From Lachnospiraceae bacterium (GTDB lineage: Bacteria > Bacillota > Clostridia > Lachnospirales > Lachnospiraceae), in contig JAFSXN010000116.1 in the NCBI GenBank assembly GCA_017444015.1, positions 1-36,506 of the forward strand: 36,506 nt of DNA. The letters are read 5' to 3'. Under the pieces are notes generated by a model. It was given only the letters and a program-made list of their open reading frames with translations, was not told where the DNA came from and searched no databases. Made by a program: the position numbers and the translations under genes. Below are positions 1-36,506 of this stretch, piece by piece (positions within the stretch are counted from its first letter, which is position 1; each line of letters starts with the position of its first letter).

Positions 1-141
1 AATAACGAAATTACTTTCCATTTCGTTATTGAGTGCGCCGAATTCGGGCCGCTTAAGGCGGCATATTTCCTATCCGAATTCGTGCGCATCATATTATACG
101 ATTAACGAAAAGCGGCAGAGCTTTTCGTTAATCAGTATAAT
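1..141 (-). repeat. Family B structured element, left-end copy (B1-left)
   Basis: A multi-hairpin element read on the minus strand. It has a 5' hairpin (positions 93-141, stem GATTAACGAAAAGC), the box TGATGCGCACG (complement of 81-91), a core helix GAATTCGG/CCGAATTC enclosing a GCCGCC/GGCGGC hairpin, and a 3' hairpin built on ATAACGAAA. Bases 1-134 are identical to 36373-36506. The first four bases of the outer hairpin stem (ACTC) are missing here because the sequence starts inside the element. Confidence 0.8.
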
Positions 142-4328: not shown

Positions 4329-4465
4329 CTCCCGATTATTTCTTAATTCGGGAACCGCTGAATTACGCGTTTCCCGCGCCGGATGCGCGCCGCGAAGCGG
4401 CTTCCACTGCGCATCCGTGCGCATTACTAGTAAGGAAAAAATGATTTAATCAGTTTTTCCTTAGT
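4329..4465 (-). repeat. Family B structured element, copy B2
   Basis: Minus-strand sense copy between the first permease and the ATPase. It has a 5' hairpin AAGGAAAAA/TTTTTCCTT overlapping the permease stop codon, the box TAATGCGCACG (complement of 4416-4426), a core helix GGATGCGC/GCGCATCC, the bulge AGTGGAA, a GCCGC/GCGGC hairpin and the closing GGCGC. A 3' hairpin (TTCCCGAATT.../...AATCGGGAG, 4329-4353) ends 27 bp before the ATPase start codon. Confidence 0.75.
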
Positions 4466-5459
4466 TCTTTCTCCGTCTCGCCATAACATCGGCGTAAACA
4501 ACGACGATAACGATCAGGCCCGTAACGATCAGCTGGATATCCTTCGCAAAGCCCAGCGCCAGGATACCTTCCTGCAAAAGAGAGATAATAAAAACGCCGA
4601 TCACGGTTCCGCCGATAGAGGCAAGTCCGCCGGACATCGAGGTTCCGCCCATAACGCAGCCAGCGATCGCTTCATTATTATACTGATCACCGTACCCCGG
4701 CTGAACCGTCGTATACGCGCCTACGAAGAAGATTGCGGCGATCCCCACAAGGGTTCCGCAGATGACATAAGCCAGCATTTCCCATTTTTTCGTATCAACA
4801 CCGGAAAGTCTTACAGCCTCGCGGTTACTGCCGAGACAGAGAATATAACGGCCGGGCCTGGTATTGTTCAAGATGATCATACAGATCACCGCCGCAATCA
4901 GGAAAATCACCAGACCTACCGGGAAACCGCCCTTGCTTACCAGATTCCGAAACCACCCCTTATCCGGATCGTTCGAAAGCGGCCAGCTGACCGACTGCGT
5001 CTTTGTATACACGGCAGCGATACCCTTTGCGATATTCATCGAAGCCATAGAAACAATAAAGGGAGGGATCGTCCAGTATGCTACCAGATAGCCGTTTAAA
5101 ATACCGAAGCACAGACCGATCAGAACGCTCATAATCAGAGCTACAACTACCGGCGCTCCCTTAAATACCATCGTATATCCGGAGATCAGAGCGCAGCAGA
5201 ACATAACCGGTCCGATAGAGAAATCAATTCCTCCGGTCGCGATGACGAAAGTAACGCCAAGAGATAGGAATCCAAGAAAATACACATAATTCAGGACGCT
5301 CATAATTCTGGCTTTTCCGAAGAAGCCGGGAACCAGAAGGCAGAAAACGAAGTACATCGCGATCAATACGCAAAATAGAATGATCCTGTTAAAACCGACC
5401 TTCTTAACAAAAGGGATCTGTTTGAACTTTTCCAATTTTCTTACCTCCGTATGAGCCAC
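4461..5459 (-). CDS. Sugar ABC transporter permease (RbsC-type), first gene of operon
   Basis: A 332-residue BPD_transp_2 permease with about eight to ten transmembrane stretches. The coupling-loop region reads CLGSNREAVRLSGVDTKK, followed by AGCVMGGTSMSGG, homologous to but distinct from the second permease at 1801. It is the first gene of the importer operon; most rbs-type operons put the binding protein or ATPase first. A sigma-A promoter (5526-5554) and an AAAACGTTTT operator lie upstream. The stop codon is inside the 5' hairpin of repeat B2. An upstream ribosome site is not obvious: GAGG/GGAGGTAAGA lies within the first codons, so the true start could be slightly downstream (MEKFKQIPF or similar). 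Confidence 0.88.
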   Translation of the reverse strand: MAHTEVRKLEKFKQIPFVKKVGFNRIILFCVLIAMYFVFCLLVPGFFGKARIMSVLNYVYFLGFLSLGVTFVIATGGIDFSIGPVMFCCALISGYTMVFKGAPVVVALIMSVLIGLCFGILNGYLVAYWTIPPFIVSMASMNIAKGIAAVYTKTQSVSWPLSNDPDKGWFRNLVSKGGFPVGLVIFLIAAVICMIILNNTRPGRYILCLGSNREAVRLSGVDTKKWEMLAYVICGTLVGIAAIFFVGAYTTVQPGYGDQYNNEAIAGCVMGGTSMSGGLASIGGTVIGVFIISLLQEGILALGFAKDIQLIVTGLIVIVVVYADVMARRRKN

Positions 5460-6926: not shown

Positions 6927-6957
6927 TGTTTTGCCTCTCTTATTCTTCATTATAATT

Positions 6958-7060
6958 TATACTGATTAACGATTTTCGTTGCCGATCAACCGGACTCGCA
7001 AACGCAATTCCAGTACGTTTGCTTTATCAAAAACGGCAATTAATTGCGTCCGCGAGTATA
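6958..7060 (+). mobile_element. MITE-like family A element, copy A1 (99 bp plus flanking TA)
   Basis: A 99-bp element bounded by TA on both sides. It starts TACTGATTAACGATTTTCG and ends in a stem half AATTGCGTCCGCGAGT that pairs with the internal ACTCGCAAACGCAATT. It differs from copy A5 by a single base, suggesting recent spread. It lies between gatZ and the aldo/keto reductase gene. No transposase is encoded; TA duplication is typical of IS630/Tc1-mariner-mobilised MITEs. Confidence 0.85.
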
Positions 7061-7111
7061 GTATATCAGGGCAGTCTACAGGTTTGCGCCCCGAACAACG
7101 TATCAGAGGGT

Positions 7112-10116: not shown

Positions 10117-10180
10117 AAAAAATCCTCTCTTTCCTCATTCAGCCGGGCTTAATAACAAAACCTCCAGCCAGATCATTATA

Positions 10181-10283
10181 TATACTGGTTAACGCTTTTC
10201 GGTGCCGATTAATCGGACTCGCAAACGCAATTTCAGTACGTTTGCGTTATCAGAAACGGCAATTAATTGCGTTCGCGAGTATA
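10181..10283 (+). mobile_element. MITE-like family A element, copy A2
   Basis: A 99-bp element flanked by TA (103 bp in all), beginning TACTGGTTAACGCTTTTCG and ending CGTTCGCGAGTA. It is the same length as the other four copies and carries a few substitutions. It lies in the gap between the dehydrogenase and the FGGY kinase genes, eight bases from the kinase stop codon. Confidence 0.85.
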
Positions 10284-10290
10284 AAAAATA

Positions 10291-12045: not shown

Positions 12046-13205
12046 ATGTCCGAACGAAATCCATATGCTATCAGCTTCGGAAGGATCCCGAGGCAATTCA
12101 TCAGCAGGGATCTGCTTATAGGCGAAATAATCGACACATTATACTCGCGAACGCAATTAATTGCCGTTTTTGAGAAAGCATACGTACTGGAATTGCGTTT
12201 GCGAGTCTGGTTGATCGGCAACGAAAATCGTTAACCAGTATAAACAGCGATTCCGTTGAAGAGCAGGCTTTTAAGCTCACGGGGATCTGCGGAACCGGAA
12301 AAACCGTTACTCTCTCTGCGATAGAGCGGGAATTAAAGCAGGACAGTAAATGGATCATCATTGGTCTGAAGCCAAATTCCAATCTGACCAACGATCTTGT
12401 TGCCCGATTGTACAGTGAAGTTCCTTTCCTGACAAAATTGATCGATGCCGAGTTAAACCTCTCCGCTTTTGGGATCGGGCTGAATCTCTCCAAAAAAAGT
12501 CCCGTCGCAAGTATTGACACAGCCCTCAGACAGCTGATGCAGGAGATCAGAAAACAGCAGAAAAGGGTGCTGATCACCATTGATGAAGTACAGAAAACCG
12601 ACGCTATGATAGACTTTATCCAGGAATTCCAGCTGCTGATAAGAGAGGATTTACCAATTTATCTAATCATAGCCGGATTGTATGAGGACATTGAGGATAT
12701 CGAAAACACGGACGGGCTGACCTTCTTGCTTCGGGCAGCCCGATATGAAATGACTCCGTTAAGCATTCGGATCATAAAAGAGGATTACAAAAAAACCTTG
12801 TCACTGTCGGAAGAAACCGCAGACAGACTCGCTCGAATGACCAAAGGATATGCCTTTGCCTATCAGGCCTTCGGCAAATACATGTGGGAATCAACGGGTC
12901 CGGAGATCACGGATCTGATACTTTCCCAGGTAGACGAAGCCCTGTCAGAGAAGGTATACAATAAAATCTGGAGTGAGCTGGCTCCCAGGGACAAATTCTT
13001 CCTGAGCTATATCGTTCAAAAGGAGCAAATGAGCGCTTCCGAGCTTCTGGAACTGACAAAAAAGAAGCACAATGAATGGAGCGAGCCCAGAAAACGTCTG
13101 ATCGAAAAGGGCATTCTTGACGGTTCCGTTCGCGGAAGGATTTCATTAAAGCTCCCCCGTTTCGGAGAATATACCAGAATGCGTCTGGAAGCCGAAGCCG
13201 ATTAG
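12046..13205 (+). pseudogene. AAA-family ATPase gene interrupted by MITE copy A3
   Basis: The ATG at 12046 follows the ribosome site GAGAGGTG. The first 32 codons (to ...GEIIDTL) are intact. A MITE at 12142-12240 then shifts the frame, and translation from this start runs into the element and stops at 12232-12234. Removing bases 12142-12242 joins TTA directly to AAC and restores one frame: ...IIDTL-NSDSVEEQAFKLTGICGTGKT... This puts a P-loop right after the join. The rest of the ATPase has a Walker B-like RVLITIDEVQK and a winged-helix-like C-terminus (LLELTKKKHNEWSEPRKRL). The intact protein would be about 352 residues, of an AAA_16-like family. The downstream piece could start only at an internal ATG (12408), after the P-loop, so it would be inactive. 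Confidence 0.88.
12140..12242 (-). mobile_element. MITE-like family A element, copy A3, inserted in an ATPase gene
   Basis: An inverted copy of the 99-bp element (12142-12240) flanked by TA at 12140-12141 and 12241-12242. The host gene needs only one TA to read in frame across the site, so the second TA is a target-site duplication. This is direct evidence that the family is, or recently was, mobile and inserts at TA. Confidence 0.92.
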
Positions 13206-14062: not shown

Positions 14063-14086
14063 AGTAATCTGTTCCTTCTGTCAATA

Positions 14087-14189
14087 TATACTGGTTAACA
14101 CTTTTCGTTGCCGATCAACCAGACTCGCAAACGCAATTTCAGTACATTTACTTTATCAAAAACGGCAATTAATTGCGTTCGCGAGTATA
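14087..14189 (+). mobile_element. MITE-like family A element, copy A4
   Basis: A 99-bp element flanked by TA, 103 bp in total, starting TACTGGTTAACACTTTTCG. It carries substitutions such as ACATTTACTTT in the loop, so it is somewhat older than A1 and A5. It lies 24 bp upstream of the zinc-ribbon protein start codon. Confidence 0.85.
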
Positions 14190-14232
14190 ATCTCTCCCGG
14201 GCCCCGGGTGAGCAGTTATGCCTCCTATTATT

Positions 14233-16967: not shown

Positions 16968-17050
16968 CGAGCAGGGGTGATGAAATCCCCCTGCTCGCGG
17001 CGGGCCGCCGGCCGCAAAGCGGTATATTCCACTCGGCGGCCCTGCCATAG
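16968..17050 (-). repeat. Divergent family B element, copy B5
   Basis: On the minus strand: core helix GGGCCGCCG/CGGCGGCCC (17034-17042 with 17002-17010), bulge AGTGGAATATA, inner hairpin CCGC/GCGG, an outer GGC/GCC pair, then a 3' hairpin CGAGCAGGGG/CCCCTGCTCG (16968-16997). The layout and the bulge match B1-B4, but the TGATGCGCAC box has become CTATGGCA. It lies between the binding-protein and malF-like genes. Confidence 0.6.
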
Positions 17051-17111: not shown

Positions 17112-18446
17112 TTACGGAGCGGAAACGTCTACTCTCGCATCCGAAGCCGCAAGTACATCGTCAAGGGTCTCGTTGCCTAACAGCCATTCTGCTACGTCGT
17201 TTGCGTTCTCATCCTGGAAGCCGGACCATACGAGCTGGGTATTTCCGGTATTCGCGTCAACGATCTGGCCTGCGCTCGAATATACGTCGATATCGCTCTG
17301 GCTCGGATTATTGAAGGTCGGGCTGACACCCTTCAGCATAGAAGCTGTGCTGGTATAGTCATAAATGCTCACTGCCAGGTCCGCGTTTCCTGCAAGGAAG
17401 TTGATGAAGGCGTCCGCTGCGTCGCTATATGCGGTATCCTTGCTCTTCATGATCGTGATATTCGGCTCAAAGATCAGCTTCGCGTCGCCCGTAGCGTTCG
17501 GGAACGGGAAGATACCGAAGTCAAAGTTCTCGTCGATGTCAAGGAAGTTCTGGATCGACCATGCTCCGGAAACCTTCATAGCTGCCTCTCCGTTAACCAG
17601 CTTCGCGTCGCAGGCGGTCTGCTCCAGAGAGAAGGTATCCTCAAAGGTATTGTTATAGATCAGCTCGTTGTAGCCATAAGCGGTCGACCATTCCGGCGTA
17701 TCGGCAAAGCTGGTCGTACCGGCTCTGAAATCATCGCCCCAGGTAGGATACTTATTGAAGACGTCGTTGATGGCAAACTGCATCGTTACATTCCCGATGC
17801 TCCAGGTATCTACCATATGAGAAGCAAAAGGAGTAATCCCGTTGTCGTTGCAGACCTTGATAATATTTGCAAGATCGTCCTGGGTCTTGGGGATCTCAAG
17901 TCCTAATTCCTCAAAGATCGCCCGGTTATAGAAAACGCCCTGATAAAGCGCGTTGTAAACGATTCCGTAAACCTTGCCGTCCACCGTAACTCCGCTTGTC
18001 GCGTCGTCCAGTACCTTATCAACAGCCTCAAGACCGGTCAGATCTCCCAGAACGCCGAGGGAAGCGTAGGTCTTAACATCCTGGCCCTTTCCGATCATGA
18101 TATCCGGAAGCCCTGACTGTAAATACTGCTGCATCTTGGGTCCGAAGCCCTCGCCCCAGTCTACGCACTCCCACTCGATCGTAAGATTCGGATAAACCTC
18201 CGCCAAGGCTTCATCGATCATATCCTCTACGCCGGCATCCGTTGTGGACTGTCCCCAGAGAACCTTTAAGGTAATATCCTCATCCTGCCAGGCAGCAGCG
18301 TCTGTCGTTTCCTCTGCCGCCTCAGATGCACCTGCCGCATCAGAGGCCCCGGATGCTGCGGGTGCCGCAGGCGCTCCCGCGCAGCCCGAAAGCAGTCCGA
18401 GGATCATAGCCGTACTCAGTAATACGCCGATAACTTTCTTTTTCAT
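17112..18446 (-). CDS. Extracellular sugar-binding lipoprotein (family 1, CUT1 type)
   Basis: A 444-residue solute-binding lipoprotein. The signal peptide ends at lipobox LLSGC (Cys22), followed by an Ala/Ser/Glu-rich spacer to about residue 50. The mature domain starts ITLKVLWGQ and contains PDIMIGKGQD, AMKVSGAWS and FPFPNATGDAK, typical of family 1 sugar binders. GGAGGAAT lies just before ATG 18446. It is the first gene of the importer operon, under the YesN/YesM pair encoded upstream on the same strand, with family B copy B3 in its leader. The stop codon lies within a small GTTTCCG/CGGAAAAC inverted repeat. The ligand is unknown. Confidence 0.92.
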   Translation of the reverse strand: MKKKVIGVLLSTAMILGLLSGCAGAPAAPAASGASDAAGASEAAEETTDAAAWQDEDITLKVLWGQSTTDAGVEDMIDEALAEVYPNLTIEWECVDWGEGFGPKMQQYLQSGLPDIMIGKGQDVKTYASLGVLGDLTGLEAVDKVLDDATSGVTVDGKVYGIVYNALYQGVFYNRAIFEELGLEIPKTQDDLANIIKVCNDNGITPFASHMVDTWSIGNVTMQFAINDVFNKYPTWGDDFRAGTTSFADTPEWSTAYGYNELIYNNTFEDTFSLEQTACDAKLVNGEAAMKVSGAWSIQNFLDIDENFDFGIFPFPNATGDAKLIFEPNITIMKSKDTAYSDAADAFINFLAGNADLAVSIYDYTSTASMLKGVSPTFNNPSQSDIDVYSSAGQIVDANTGNTQLVWSGFQDENANDVAEWLLGNETLDDVLAASDARVDVSAP

Positions 18447-18472: not shown

Positions 18473-18606
18473 TATAGGAAACGAATTAAGTGCTTGCACT
18501 TTAATTCGTTTCCCGCGTCGGATTTTGGCCGATTTATCGGCATATCTCCATACAAAATCCGTGCGCATCATTGTTTATAGTGAACGAATTTATTTCGTTC
18601 ACTATA
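18473..18606 (-). repeat. Family B structured element, copy B3
   Basis: Minus-strand sense copy: 5' hairpin TATAGTGAACGAA/TTCGTTCACTATA, box TGATGCGCACG (complement of 18560-18570), core helix GGATTTTG/CAAAATCC, bulge TATGGAGATAT, inner hairpin GCCGAT/ATCGGC, closing GACGC, and 3' hairpin GGAAACGAATTAA/TTAATTCGTTTCC (18477-18513). It ends 30 bp before the sugar-binding protein start codon. Confidence 0.8.
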
Positions 18607-21837: not shown

Positions 21838-21888
21838 AGTCTACGCCGTTTGACCGTAAATAGTACTCAGATATCAATATTTTCTATT

Positions 21889-21991
21889 TATACTGATTAA
21901 CGATTTTCGTTGCCGATCAACCGGACTCGCAAACGCAATTCCAGTACGTTTGCTTTATCAAAAACGGCAATTAATTGCGTTCGCGAGTATA
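21889..21991 (+). mobile_element. MITE-like family A element, copy A5
   Basis: A 99-bp element flanked by TA, differing from A1 by one base. It lies between the divergently transcribed sensor kinase (minus) and mtaC (plus), about 140 bp from the kinase start. It may have separated or disturbed the original regulatory region. Confidence 0.87.
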
Positions 21992-22070
21992 GCTTCGCAA
22001 CCACAGCAGCATCAGTTATCCAAATATTTTTATATTTATTATAAATATATTTCAATCCACCGCGAAAGAT

Positions 22071-26633: not shown

Positions 26634-26820
26634 CCCCTGTGCGGTTGCCATCCAAAAGCAATATGATCAGGCATTCTATGCCTGGATCATATTGCTTTTG
26701 GATGAGCAACCCACCCCATAATGAGCAAAACAAGTCTGCGTAAGCAGACGGCAGAGTGCGTCAGCGCGGGTTTTGCGAATTATGGGGTGAGGATGGCACG
26801 CAGTGCCATCCGTACAGGGG
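26634..26820. other. Nested, branched palindrome of about 187 bp
   Basis: The outer arms CCCCTGT (26634-26640) and ACAGGGG (26814-26820) enclose three structures: a 24-bp hairpin with one bulged base (26649-26704, tip GCATTCTATGCC), a stem CACCCCATAAT/ATTATGGGGTG holding a TCTGC/GCAGA hairpin, and a GGATGGCAC/GTGCCATCC hairpin (26792-26810). The 26452-27015 interval has no gene; besides this it holds the 25-bp motif and family B copy B4. The fold looks like a structured RNA or an excisable hairpin-ended element. Confidence 0.65.
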
Positions 26821-26860: not shown

Positions 26861-26988
26861 TATAGTTATCGTAAACGAATTAAAAAATTCGTTTACGATA
26901 ACTATTGATGCGCACGATTGCGATAAGGGAGGCGCTTTCAGCGCTCCGCAATCGGCGCAATAGGAAACGAATAAATTCGTTTCCTATA
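26861..26988 (+). repeat. Family B structured element, copy B4
   Basis: Plus-strand sense copy: 5' hairpin ATAGTTATCGTAAACGAATT and its complement, box TGATGCGCACG (26906-26916), core helix GATTGCG/CGCAATC, bulge ATAAGGGAG, inner hairpin GCGCT/AGCGC, closing GGCGC, and 3' hairpin AGGAAACGAAT/ATTCGTTTCCT. It ends 27 bp before the fkp start codon. It is the only copy on the plus strand and lies upstream of a plus-strand gene. Confidence 0.8.
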
Positions 26989-27015: not shown

Positions 27016-29916
27016 ATGAATACTTCCTTATACTTATCACAGTCCTACCAGGATGCCTGGAGCGATTATCAGAGGAGCCTGAAATCTCTTTCCTTCCCTG
27101 TCTGGGACTATATCATCCTGACCGCCAGCAACGCGCATCAGGCGGAGGGCTTCCGCCTGCAGATCGAAAGCCGCAGAGCTTATCTTCCTGAGAAAACAAA
27201 ATTCGCGGTGATCTCCGATGAGGGAGGCGTCCGGGTAGGCAGCGGCGGCGCGACCCTGAGCGTCCTAAAGTTCCTCAGAGAGAAAGAAGAGTCCTTCAAG
27301 GGTCTTCGGGTCCTTGTGATCCACTCCGGGGGCGACAGCAGGCGGGTTCCGCAGTATTCGGCTCTCGGGAAGCTGTTTTCCCCAGTCCCCCACGAACTTC
27401 CCGATGGCAGGCCCTCTACCCTGTTTGATGAATTTCTGATCTCAATGTCAGCGGTCCCGGGGCGGATCCGGGAAGGAATGTTATTGTTATCCGGAGACGT
27501 ACTTCTCCTCTTCAATCCGCTTCTGATCGACTGGAGCGGCAAGGGCGCGGCTGTAATCAGCTTTAAGGAGGATGCGGAGACCGGAAAGGACCACGGGGTA
27601 TTCTTACGGGGCGAGGACGGAACGGTCCGGGCCTTCCTCCATAAGCAGTCCGTAGAGAGGCTGACCGCTGTCGGCGCGGTAAACGAAGCCGGTGCGGTGG
27701 ATATCGATACGGGAGCGATCCTCTTCGGAGTCGATGTACAAAACGCCCTGTATTCCCTGATCAGTACGAACGGCACTCTGGACAAGCAAAAATACTATGC
27801 CTTTGTCAACAGCACGGTACGCCTGTCGCTCTACGGAGACTTTCAGTATCCGCTCGCGGCGGATTCGACGATCGAAGGCTTCTTTGAGGAAAAGCCCGAA
27901 GGAGAATACAGCGAAGAATTAAAGGAATGCAGGAGACAGCTCTGGACGGCTCTGCGGGGCTTTCCGATGAAGCTCTTGCGGCTGGCTCCGGCGAAGTTCA
28001 TTCATTTCGGGACCACCGGAGAGATCTTAGCGCTTATGACAAAGGAAGTGGAGGATTACAGGGATCTTGGCTGGAGCAGGCGGGTAAACAGCTCTATGAC
28101 GGCTCTTTCCGGCTATAACTCTGTGCTGGATCCGGATGCGAAGACCGGGGAGGGAGCCTATCTTGAGGTATCCTATGTCCACGGCGCCGCAAAGCTCGGG
28201 AATAACTGCGTGCTTTCCTATATTGATATCGTTGACGAGACTGTGCCGGACAATGTCGTTTTGCACGGTCTGAAGCAGAAGGACGGAAACTTCGTCTGCC
28301 GTATCTACGGAATCGATGACAACCCCAAGGATAACAAGCTCTTTGGCAGGGAGCTTACGGGACCGCTCTGGCGGGACGGGGAGGAGCATACGCTCTGGAG
28401 CGCCCAGATCTATCCGGAAAAGAGCACGGTAAAAGAGGCGGTAGAGGCTGCCCTGGCGCTCTACAGTCAGGTAATGAAGGGCGGAGAGCTTGCTCCGGGA
28501 AAATCCATGGCTTGCGGCTTTATGGATGCCGATCCAGAGGCGATCTTAGGCTGGAATCAGCATATGGCCGAGCTTGTAGCGATGAACCGGCTGGAAAACA
28601 GGATCGACGCAAAGATCCCCGCCACAAAAACGGAAGGATTGAAAACTCTGTCAGACCTTCAGAAGAAATGGCTTGCCGAGCGGTTAGAGGATGCCGACTA
28701 TTCAGAGGCTATGCGTCTTCATTACTACGTGGGTACAGCGCAAAAGGACGAGGTCGAAATTCGAAAGGCCTTCTCCGTTCTGTCCTCCGCTATCCTGACC
28801 TCAACGCTCGCCGGTCTTAAAGAAAACAAAGAGGCAAGGATCCGGCTTGAAGAACATGAAGTCAGACTTCCGCTTCGCGTGAACTTCGGAGGCGGCTGGT
28901 CCGATACCCCGCCCTACTGCAATGAAAACGGCGGAACGGTTTTAAACGCGGCAATCCTCCTAAACGGCAAACGGCCGGTCAAGGTCGTCCTGAAGAGGCT
29001 TCCCGAGTATAAGATCGTCTTTGAATCGGCGGATATGGATGTTCACGGGGAATTTGATTCCATAGAGCAGCTGCAGTCCGTGGGCGACCCCTTTGATTCC
29101 TTTGTTCTGCAAAAGGCAGCGCTCTTAGCCTGTGGAGTGATCCCGGCCACGGGCGGAAGCCTCGAAGAGACCTTAAAGCGGCTTGGCGGCGGGATCTGGA
29201 TGGATACCGAGGTCACGGGAGTTCCCAAGGGCTCGGGTCTCGGAACCAGCTCGATCCTTGCGGCGGCCTGTGTTAAGGCGCTATTTGAGTTTCTCGGAAT
29301 CCCTCACAGCGAAGAGGACCTCTACTCCCACGTCCTTTGTATGGAACAGATCATGTCGACCGGCGGCGGCTGGCAGGATCAGGCAGGGGGCGTCACGAAC
29401 GGCATCAAATACATCACCTCCCGCCCGGGGCTGAAGCAGGAGCTTACGGTTTCTCATTTGCAGCTTACGGACAGCGTGAAGGAGGAGCTGAACCGGCGAT
29501 TTGCTCTAATCTATACCGGTCAGCGCAGACTTGCCCGAAATCTCCTGCGGGATGTCGTGGGCCGCTATATCGGAAATGAACCGGATACCGTCTACGCCTT
29601 AAACGAGATCCAGAGAAACGCAACGCTCCAGCGGTTTGAGCTGGAGCGTGGAAATATCGATGCCTTCGCGGGACTCCTGGCGGAGCATTGGAAGCTCAGC
29701 CAGATGATCGACAGCGGTTCAACAAATACCCTGATCGATCAGATCTTTGATTCCTGCGACGACCTGTTAGCCGGAAGGATGATCTGCGGTGCCGGCGGCG
29801 GAGGCTTTTTGCAGGTAGTGCTGAAAGCCGAGGCTTCGAAGGAAGAGCTGCAGGCGCGTCTGAAGAGTGTGTTCTCCGACACCGATATCGGCGTCTGGGA
29901 CTGCGAGCTGGTATAG
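27016..29916 (+). CDS. fkp: Bifunctional L-fucokinase / GDP-L-fucose pyrophosphorylase
   Basis: A 966-residue two-domain salvage enzyme, similar in length to Bacteroides Fkp (about 950). The N-terminal half is the pyrophosphorylase: VGSGGAT (74-80) and IHSGGDSRRVPQYSALGKLF (from residue 102) form the nucleotide site. The C-terminal half is a GHMP kinase: LPLRVNFGGGWSDTPP (617-632), ATP loop PKGSGLGTSS (about 737-746) and CGAGGGGF (924-931). Expected reactions are L-fucose to fucose-1-phosphate, then GDP-L-fucose, used for capsule or glycoprotein fucosylation. GGGAGACGGAG precedes the ATG. It converges tail to tail with the rhamnose-type permease (6-bp gap, no terminator). The neighbouring 6-deoxyhexose importer and mutarotase fit fucose or rhamnose scavenging. 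Confidence 0.93.
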   Translation: MNTSLYLSQSYQDAWSDYQRSLKSLSFPVWDYIILTASNAHQAEGFRLQIESRRAYLPEKTKFAVISDEGGVRVGSGGATLSVLKFLREKEESFKGLRVLVIHSGGDSRRVPQYSALGKLFSPVPHELPDGRPSTLFDEFLISMSAVPGRIREGMLLLSGDVLLLFNPLLIDWSGKGAAVISFKEDAETGKDHGVFLRGEDGTVRAFLHKQSVERLTAVGAVNEAGAVDIDTGAILFGVDVQNALYSLISTNGTLDKQKYYAFVNSTVRLSLYGDFQYPLAADSTIEGFFEEKPEGEYSEELKECRRQLWTALRGFPMKLLRLAPAKFIHFGTTGEILALMTKEVEDYRDLGWSRRVNSSMTALSGYNSVLDPDAKTGEGAYLEVSYVHGAAKLGNNCVLSYIDIVDETVPDNVVLHGLKQKDGNFVCRIYGIDDNPKDNKLFGRELTGPLWRDGEEHTLWSAQIYPEKSTVKEAVEAALALYSQVMKGGELAPGKSMACGFMDADPEAILGWNQHMAELVAMNRLENRIDAKIPATKTEGLKTLSDLQKKWLAERLEDADYSEAMRLHYYVGTAQKDEVEIRKAFSVLSSAILTSTLAGLKENKEARIRLEEHEVRLPLRVNFGGGWSDTPPYCNENGGTVLNAAILLNGKRPVKVVLKRLPEYKIVFESADMDVHGEFDSIEQLQSVGDPFDSFVLQKAALLACGVIPATGGSLEETLKRLGGGIWMDTEVTGVPKGSGLGTSSILAAACVKALFEFLGIPHSEEDLYSHVLCMEQIMSTGGGWQDQAGGVTNGIKYITSRPGLKQELTVSHLQLTDSVKEELNRRFALIYTGQRRLARNLLRDVVGRYIGNEPDTVYALNEIQRNATLQRFELERGNIDAFAGLLAEHWKLSQMIDSGSTNTLIDQIFDSCDDLLAGRMICGAGGGGFLQVVLKAEASKEELQARLKSVFSDTDIGVWDCELV

Positions 29917-36328: not shown

Positions 36329-36368
36329 ATTCTCAAGCACCTCCGAACCTAAAAAATCTAAAAACTAT

Positions 36369-36506
36369 ACTCAATAACGAAATTACTTTCCATTTCGTTA
36401 TTGAGTGCGCCGAATTCGGGCCGCTTAAGGCGGCATATTTCCTATCCGAATTCGTGCGCATCATATTATACGATTAACGAAAAGCGGCAGAGCTTTTCGT
36501 TAATCA
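36369..36506 (-). repeat. Family B structured element, right-end copy (B1-right)
   Basis: Minus-strand sense copy with the complete 3' hairpin ACTCAATAACGAAA/TTTCGTTATTGAGT (36369-36406), core GAATTCGG/CCGAATTC, box TGATGCGCACG (complement of 36453-36463), and a 5' hairpin cut off by the end of the sequence. 36373-36506 is identical to 1-134. It ends 40 bp before the UroD-family start codon. Confidence 0.8.

Follow-up and report, generated by a model that had tools for sequence, protein, structure and literature searches.

A conserved bulged-hairpin core in an interspersed, probably mobile DNA repeat of Lachnospiraceae

Introduction

The DNA analysed here, a 36,506-nucleotide stretch from a Lachnospiraceae genome (hereafter the window), has several copies of a structured element, one of them just upstream of an fkp-like gene. 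Is it a regulatory RNA leader, or a repeat that moves as DNA? The initial annotation, made from the letters alone, left both possibilities standing: either an RNA family that controls glycan-use genes in cis, or a mobile palindrome that was domesticated to do the same. I estimate a probability of roughly 0.7 that the element is a non-autonomous mobile DNA repeat resembling MITEs and REPs, which in this genome is probably moved by an IS630-type transposase and whose core is conserved mainly at the DNA level. The core is common to lineages with quite different end hairpins.

Results

Copies and architecture

The element is about 125-145 bp long and has the layout P1 hairpin, core, P3 hairpin (Table 1). 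The presence of two outer hairpins flanking the core was borne out across copies. The core is composed of the box GATGCGCAC, helix P2, a purine bulge (usually with GGA), a short hairpin, P2′, and GGCGC. In the fkp copy, the same parts follow the box TGATGCGCAC in the same order. The P1 hairpin of this copy has perfect 20-bp arms (100% complementary), which resemble the terminal repeat of an IS630-type transposon that this genome also carries. The start codon of the fkp-like gene is at 27016, 27 nt after the end of the copy.

Table 1. Copies of the element in the window and their parts.
Feature	Position	Strand	Remarks
P1 terminal hairpin, fkp copy	26862..26905	+	arms like TATCGTAAACGAATT; inverted repeat 26862-26881/26886-26905
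Core, fkp copy	26906..26958	+	GATTGCG subfamily; covariance model match, 61.2 bits
P3 terminal hairpin, fkp copy	26959..26988	+	AGGAAACGAA..TTCGTTTCCTATA, read from sequence
Copy upstream of gene starting at 18446	core 18515..18570	-	model match, 66 bits
P1 / P3 of copy before 18446 gene	about 18571-18603 / about 18476-18514	-	flank reading
Copy upstream of sugar-type ABC ATPase gene	core 4376..4426	-	model match, 57.5 bits
P1 / P3 of ABC ATPase copy	about 4427-4466 / about 4340-4375	-	flank reading
TATACT-ended subfamily copy, contig end	36366..36506	-	model match, 78.8 bits
Parts of 36366..36506 copy	P3 36366-36406; core 36407-36463; P1 36464 to contig end	-	
Same 134 bp, other contig end	1..134, core 35-91	-	terminal overlap with 36366..36506 copy
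Divergent relic	17000..17045	-	P2, bulge, inner hairpin; without box, without P1

A covariance model of the core (R1; 57 columns, 20 sequences) found all five of the cores that had been claimed in the window. The sequence at both contig ends is real, but it does not represent two copies; it is one identical 134-bp terminal overlap. The assembly of this genome comprises 201 contigs, and many of them stop in the same repeat. The identical ends are explained by an assembly break at the repeat and are no evidence of circularity, and the idea of a circular element was rejected. The divergent copy, first placed at 16968-17050, is also real, but it is a weak match that lacks the box (21.4 bits, E = 0.0056 in 339 kb).

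Two other features of the window were observed. Directly upstream of the fkp copy, positions 26644-26813 (+) have a sub-threshold match to the Clostridiales-1 RNA (RF01699; 41.6 bits against a gathering cut-off of 48, E = 5.7e-6). A 107-nt repeat occurs in five copies (6955-7061, 10178-10284, 14084-14190, 21886-21992, and, inverted, about 12133-12247) and is probably the other repeat family of the initial annotation.

Covariation of the core

Is the core hairpin under selection? The covariation of P2, proposed from a handful of copies, is strong in 105 aligned matches (99 distinct). In this alignment, 96.6% of the cells are paired and two-sided changes occur in 16 of the 18 pairs. The covariation value was 0.544, compared with 0.151 +/- 0.008 for shuffled and at most 0.099 for slid partners, in an alignment that had itself been fitted to the model; the MAFFT alignment of 20 sequences behind the model gave 0.336 against 0.111. 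There are 39 different P2 5′ arms among the 105 rows, and GGA is found in the bulge of 87. The P2 helix is present as described but is one pair longer; it includes C10-G53, a pair that is G-C in some relatives, which leaves A9 as the only bulged base at that position. The suggested pairing of GCGC with GCGC closes the core. TCCG stands immediately before the box in 26 of the 43 rows from relatives versus 1 of the 62 from the window's own genome.

The covariation exceeds what simple palindrome spread would give, as the arms vary but the asymmetric bulge persists. Palindrome repair may explain the symmetry of the arms but not a one-sided purine bulge kept across genera. Thus, the core hairpin is probably selected. 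A pseudoknot between the bulge and the 3′ arm of P3, possible by eye in some copies, was dropped because it is absent in lineages with another P3.

Pairing at the DNA or the RNA level

Transitions produce G·U and A·C mispairs at similar rates, while an RNA helix keeps G·U and loses A·C. In the element, the G·U:A·C deviations were 21:29 in all rows and 6:9 in the relatives alone, or 6:7 in the relatives when RNAalifold's own structure was used. The FMN riboswitch (RF00050) of the same family served as a control and gave 18:1 in 30 sequences (the best 30 loci of 54 positive genomes). The difference is significant (Fisher, 7e-5 for all rows and 0.0015 for the relatives), although the numbers are small and the choice of FMN pairs was left to RNAalifold, a program biased against A·C. 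The excess of G·U over A·C that marks pairing selected as RNA was therefore not seen in the element. The G·U share of pairs, taken alone, was not significantly lower in helices 2 and 3 of the relatives (p = 0.13), and tRNA acceptor stems as another control provided only 84 pairs, including 5 G·U.

Pairing is strictly Watson-Crick, with G·U and A·C tolerated about equally, which suggests that the core is probably conserved at the DNA level; the balance leans toward pairing as DNA, or toward decay without RNA selection. Thus, of the proposed RNA family with covarying stems, the covariation holds but the tolerated mispairs point to DNA, not RNA. Comparing G·U with A·C in this way is a simple sequence-only test for DNA-level versus RNA-level covariation.

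Copy number and distribution

The covariance-model search that had been recommended gave 111 matches in the window's genome, where contig-end copies may be halves of one, and further matches in relatives. An exact pattern was found at 47 places in the 3.77-Mb genome and at none when reversed, which excludes chance. The 109 matches analysed comprise 54 TATACT-ended, 40 GATTGCG, and 4 GAACGCG copies and 11 others, with subfamily and truncation assigned by text patterns. Core matches occur in 72 of 299 genomes of the same family (Lachnospiraceae, by named matches); five of the 72 have at least 19 matches each, and one relative, G103, has 78 copies. Across the phylum, 1 of 398 genomes matched, namely the window's own, in a set that includes at least four other genomes of the family. 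The counts from these multi-genome searches are lower bounds, with 14-19 candidates per genome and stricter filters; in the window's genome and in G103, 150 candidates each were scored. With a stricter pattern, GTDB genome contigs yielded 41 stretches, of which 40 have Lachnospiraceae or Eubacterium in the title. The pattern had no match in viral contigs, and no confirmed relative of the fkp-like protein was found there.

No Rfam family matched at its gathering threshold. This agrees with the original remark that no named riboswitch was recognised, and identity with a known Rfam family was ruled out. When matches up to E = 5 were admitted, a P1 (E = 2.1) and the relic (E = 1.7) each gave one poor overlap, which lay on the opposite strand and fell far short of the gathering score; there were no others. 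In the open-access literature searched, no description of the motif was found, and matches to the box sequence were unrelated by title.

Neighbouring genes

What lies downstream? The window copies precede the fkp-like gene, a sugar-type ABC ATPase gene, a gene for an MtaA/CmuA-type protein (which I take to have the UroD fold), and a gene for a protein without an NCBIfam match. In all, 40 downstream sense genes lie within 200 nt of a copy. Of these, 20 more were scanned; five had no family at the cut-offs used, and the others were pth, dnaJ, a glycyl-radical activase, ychF, trpS, metG, cobJ, a TcdA-like gene, hisG, fliS, a pgk-type gene, a NudE-like gene, argH, a hypothetical protein, and a NeuB-like gene. 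Judged by eye from the translations, the genes at L133 and L005 look like those of ribosomal proteins S10 and L20, respectively. The 25 downstream or neighbouring proteins scanned have no common function and belong to mixed housekeeping genes. Control of glycan-use genes is thus unsupported, the next genes outside the window being of unrelated functions, and a glycan regulon was ruled out by the gene content downstream.

Orientation relative to genes in the window's genome

The four main window copies are in sense, about 27-40 nt before start codons, as first described, but this arrangement does not hold genome-wide. Genes were called by a coding-score script, not by a standard caller, and the window calls were checked by eye. 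Next to starts, 52 copies are sense and 36 antisense (p = 0.11; 109 of the 111 matches, three of these rows lying inside called genes), and the ratio in codirectional gaps is 30:16 (p = 0.054; one of the 16 inside a called gene). Contig-end copies offer one flank only and are possibly two halves of one copy. The two young subfamilies have no significant orientation preference (16:10 and 6:4 in codirectional gaps; 24:20 and 18:13 upstream of starts). The 11 copies classed as single or other are 7:1 sense in codirectional gaps (p = 0.07). In the young subfamilies, sense copies lie closer to start codons than antisense copies (43 vs 34 copies, p = 0.005), while no such difference was found for stop codons (p = 0.31). 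Counting only the copies at most 30 nt from a start, a cut-off set after the fact, gives 18 sense and 3 antisense. In leaders, insertions in sense may be more readily tolerated or retained. Many copies are found at gene 3′ ends or between convergent genes.

These results bear on the idea that the element is a leader RNA, a riboswitch or protein-binding attenuator which regulates the next gene and, though spread by transposons, is selected for regulation. Strong covariation around an asymmetric conserved bulge, the sense position of the four window copies, the 7:1 ratio of the single copies, and the excess of sense copies within 30 nt of starts would all fit. However, the neighbouring proteins have no common function, the young subfamilies are nearly balanced upstream of starts, G·U is not favoured over A·C, and many copies lie behind genes. 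Neither a consistent class of downstream genes nor a constant sense position in leaders, which would mark a riboswitch, was found, and I consider such a leader unlikely.

Orientation in relatives

The claim that orientation always follows the downstream gene is wrong for the window's genome but is not empty for the family. In G103, the ratio in codirectional gaps is 41:2 in favour of sense (p = 2e-10; 75 of the 78 copies counted, three loci not added). Random orientation was the outcome that would have reduced the element to an ordinary repeat. The young subfamilies of the window's genome have no significant bias, but G103 has one, and the 41:2 ratio counts against a neutral MITE, which would not show such a bias. 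Smaller samples gave 7:4 in G067 (16 copies sampled), 3:2 in G256 (8), 8:2 in G222 and G191 together (8 and 3; p = 0.11), and 3:0 in G011 (8); two copies were sampled in G010.

Could the element be a 3′-end RNA module, placed in sense behind genes in some lineages as a stabiliser of the 3′ UTR or a terminator-associated hairpin? In G103, the upstream gene is on the same strand in 63 cases and on the opposite strand in 7, and the stop codon lies exactly 43 nt before the core, as the TAA of the element's left end, in 18 of 64 listed cases. In addition, two copies without P1 in the window's genome (L174 and L187) adjoin a hairpin and a T-run. Yet the preference is absent in the window's genome (50:36, same versus opposite) and in G067 (8:8), and the G103 bias is partly confounded with the replication strand. 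Its convergent gaps are 13:4 leading versus lagging, and part of the orientation bias may be due to that strand. I consider such a 3′-end module very unlikely.

At three other G103 loci, left parts of the repeat without a core were observed at the 3′ ends of ordinary genes. At two of them (L350 and L360), the repeat's left end supplies the TAA at which the gene stops, while at L359 the frame continues into the repeat.

Mobility and insertion at TA

Near-identical or identical copies of the same subfamily lie at unrelated loci, often at contig ends. At locus L151, a GATTGCG copy sits exactly between CGCAAT and ATTGCC of another repeat, at TA. Elsewhere, the host repeat is uninterrupted (CGCAAT-TA-ATTGCC, reading CGCAATTAATTGC), and both of its halves continue at L151. 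The site is intact in 34 listed strings and 3 left halves run into an element, overlapping loci being kept; both sides of an interrupted repeat were seen at L151 only. There are 21 GATTGCG copies with full P1 and P3, of which 12 have TATCG on the left and TTTCCTATA on the right, and 9 do not have both of these ends. L151 and the ends of GATTGCG copies thus indicate insertion at TA, with TA on both sides.

Which transposase could be responsible? The only DDE_3 match of the genome is an IS630-type transposon (G000:C158, the same as L190, about 1356-2556). Its transposase is in two overlapping frames, and the transposon has TATAGTAAACGAATTAA at either end, adjoining TA. If up to 3 mismatches are allowed, this 17-mer marks the P1 and P3 arms; in 307.5 kb, it was found in 96 contexts near a core (defined by a loose motif) and in 26 contexts elsewhere, 2 of which are the transposon itself. 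Five shuffled versions gave 1-3 matches in these loci, which had been chosen for holding elements. It is likely, from this resemblance of the ends, that the resident IS630-type transposase acts in trans on the element. The mobile-palindrome half of the initial proposal is thus supported by near-identical copies, TA insertion, and IS630-like ends.

The relation to IS630 was found in the window's genome only. DDE_3 genes occur in 13 of 72 genomes with the core versus 13 of 227 without (p = 0.003; kinship uncorrected). However, 59 of the 72 core-bearing genomes have no DDE_3 match, including G103 with its 78 copies, so that the L190-type transposase is not the general mover. DDE_3 is present in 4 of the 18 genomes for which at least 9 copies were listed. 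In G067, the only other genome in which the ends of both transposon and repeat were read, the transposon end TATAGCAATCCA has only a few bases in common with the repeat ends TATAGTAAACGAC.

The limits of the mobile unit are not certain, since P3 is present in 39 of the 39 GATTGCG copies scored, while P1 is absent in 10 and half present in 8. A search of the same-genus genome G193 for an empty site orthologous to that of the fkp copy gave a 29% partial match only. TATACT..AGTATA repeats without a core were also observed elsewhere in the window's genome, inside the P1 and P3 loops of several elements, and they host others at TA.

A single-strand (HUH/Y1-type) mobile palindrome as in REP, with the core hairpin as the recognised single-stranded DNA, is the least probable reading, for although the hairpins at both ends, the conserved box beside an imperfect hairpin, and the orientation bias of G103, which has 6 Y1 matches, are in its favour, the window's genome (94% complete) has 0 PF01797 matches and has TA at both element ends, the Y1-positive genomes include neither of the high-copy genomes G067 and G011, Y1 genes are as frequent with the core (42 of 72 genomes) as without (125 of 227; p = 0.68), and two G103 Y1/TnpB elements have no end sequences in common with the repeat. 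A Y1/IS200 mover was rejected on these grounds (2 of the 6 Y1 loci of G103 read); G222 loci L331-L335 were covered by a short-motif search only.

Lineages with different end hairpins

TA-type end hairpins were found in the window's genome, in 15 of the 16 sampled G067 copies, and in the G256 copies. Hairpins like CTCAGT..ACTGAG and CAAG..CTTG form the ends in G103, G011, G222, G191, and G010 and in the remaining G067 copy. Long versions of P1 in G103 contain a CCCCCACCT..AGGTGGGGG hairpin, which occurs at 22 places, 19 of them beside a model match; the other three are next to ordinary genes by eye, with no transposase recognised. At G103 loci L229, L244, and L278, the P1 loop was observed in both orientations, GTACAAGCTC and GAGCTTGTAC, as if inverted.

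Discussion

The preferred reading is that of a mobile DNA repeat, and the following mechanism is proposed from comparison of the copies. The P1 and P3 arms found in the window's lineage are versions of an IS630-type terminal inverted repeat. The IS630-type transposase most likely binds these arms and moves the element to TA sites, and the insertion would leave TA on both sides. The core may form a bulged hairpin, as extruded or single-stranded DNA, and may be bound by a factor needed for spread or maintenance. Copies which come to lie between a promoter and a ribosome-binding site would be transcribed as leader hairpins, and the sense orientation seems to be better tolerated there.

What is new is a core that is common under exchangeable ends, together with an orientation that depends on the lineage. 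I tentatively suggest, as a possibility with the odds against it, that the core serves as the recognition hairpin of a factor for mobilisation or maintenance which Lachnospiraceae have in common. The core would have been joined to end hairpins of more than one type, resembling IS630 in some genomes but not in others, and in one branch it would be placed in sense at stop codons. If so, the element would be a bacterial counterpart of SINEs, with a conserved structured body and exchangeable ends, domesticated in some branches as a 3′ or 5′ module of mRNAs. A specific factor that binds the core, if there is one, would be a new target to look for.

The repeat is abundant in a major group of gut and rumen bacteria and is apparently undescribed in the open-access literature searched. 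It breaks assemblies at its copies. It also places hairpins within leaders and downstream of housekeeping genes, and it could be taken for a riboswitch. Like riboswitch-type leaders such as the FMN family (RF00050), the element has covarying helices and conserved unpaired bases, and some copies lie just before start codons. It differs in having no gene association and in its symmetric tolerance of mispairs (21:29, against 18:1 for FMN).

REP and BIME sequences, which are associated with RAYT (Y1) transposases, are palindromic repeats between genes in which a conserved box adjoins an imperfect hairpin. The element shares the palindromic form, the intergenic location, the imperfect hairpin, and the neighbouring box. 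In contrast to REP, no Y1 (TnpA_REP) transposase was found in the window's genome, and TA is present at the insertion site.

A parallel exists in the pneumococcus. RUP and BOX of Streptococcus pneumoniae are described as small, tightly folded, interspersed repeats in many copies; BOX is modular, and RUP has been proposed, from similar terminal repeats, to be moved in trans by IS630-Spn1 (PMC3049150). The element works like RUP and BOX, which are likewise small, folded, and interspersed in many copies (PMC3049150). The differences, judged by description, are the other host group, the ends that are each self-palindromic, and the covarying bulged-hairpin core common to genomes with differing end hairpins (PMC3049150).

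MRSC-65-2 shares with the element the many copies per genome (dozens in its case) and the strong covariation (PMC11109978). Its authors considered a selfish element and noted that the structure may matter as DNA (PMC11109978). MRSC-65-2 is described as a single long stem from diverse phyla with a UYCCGG repeat, while the element combines a conserved box with a one-sided bulge and hairpins on both flanks and was matched in its own genome alone among the 398 of the phylum; the two are set apart here by description (PMC11109978). The TCCG that precedes the box in 26 of 43 rows from relatives is a possible link to UYCCGG (PMC11109978). The element is of the kind called a mobile/repeat sequence candidate (PMC11109978).
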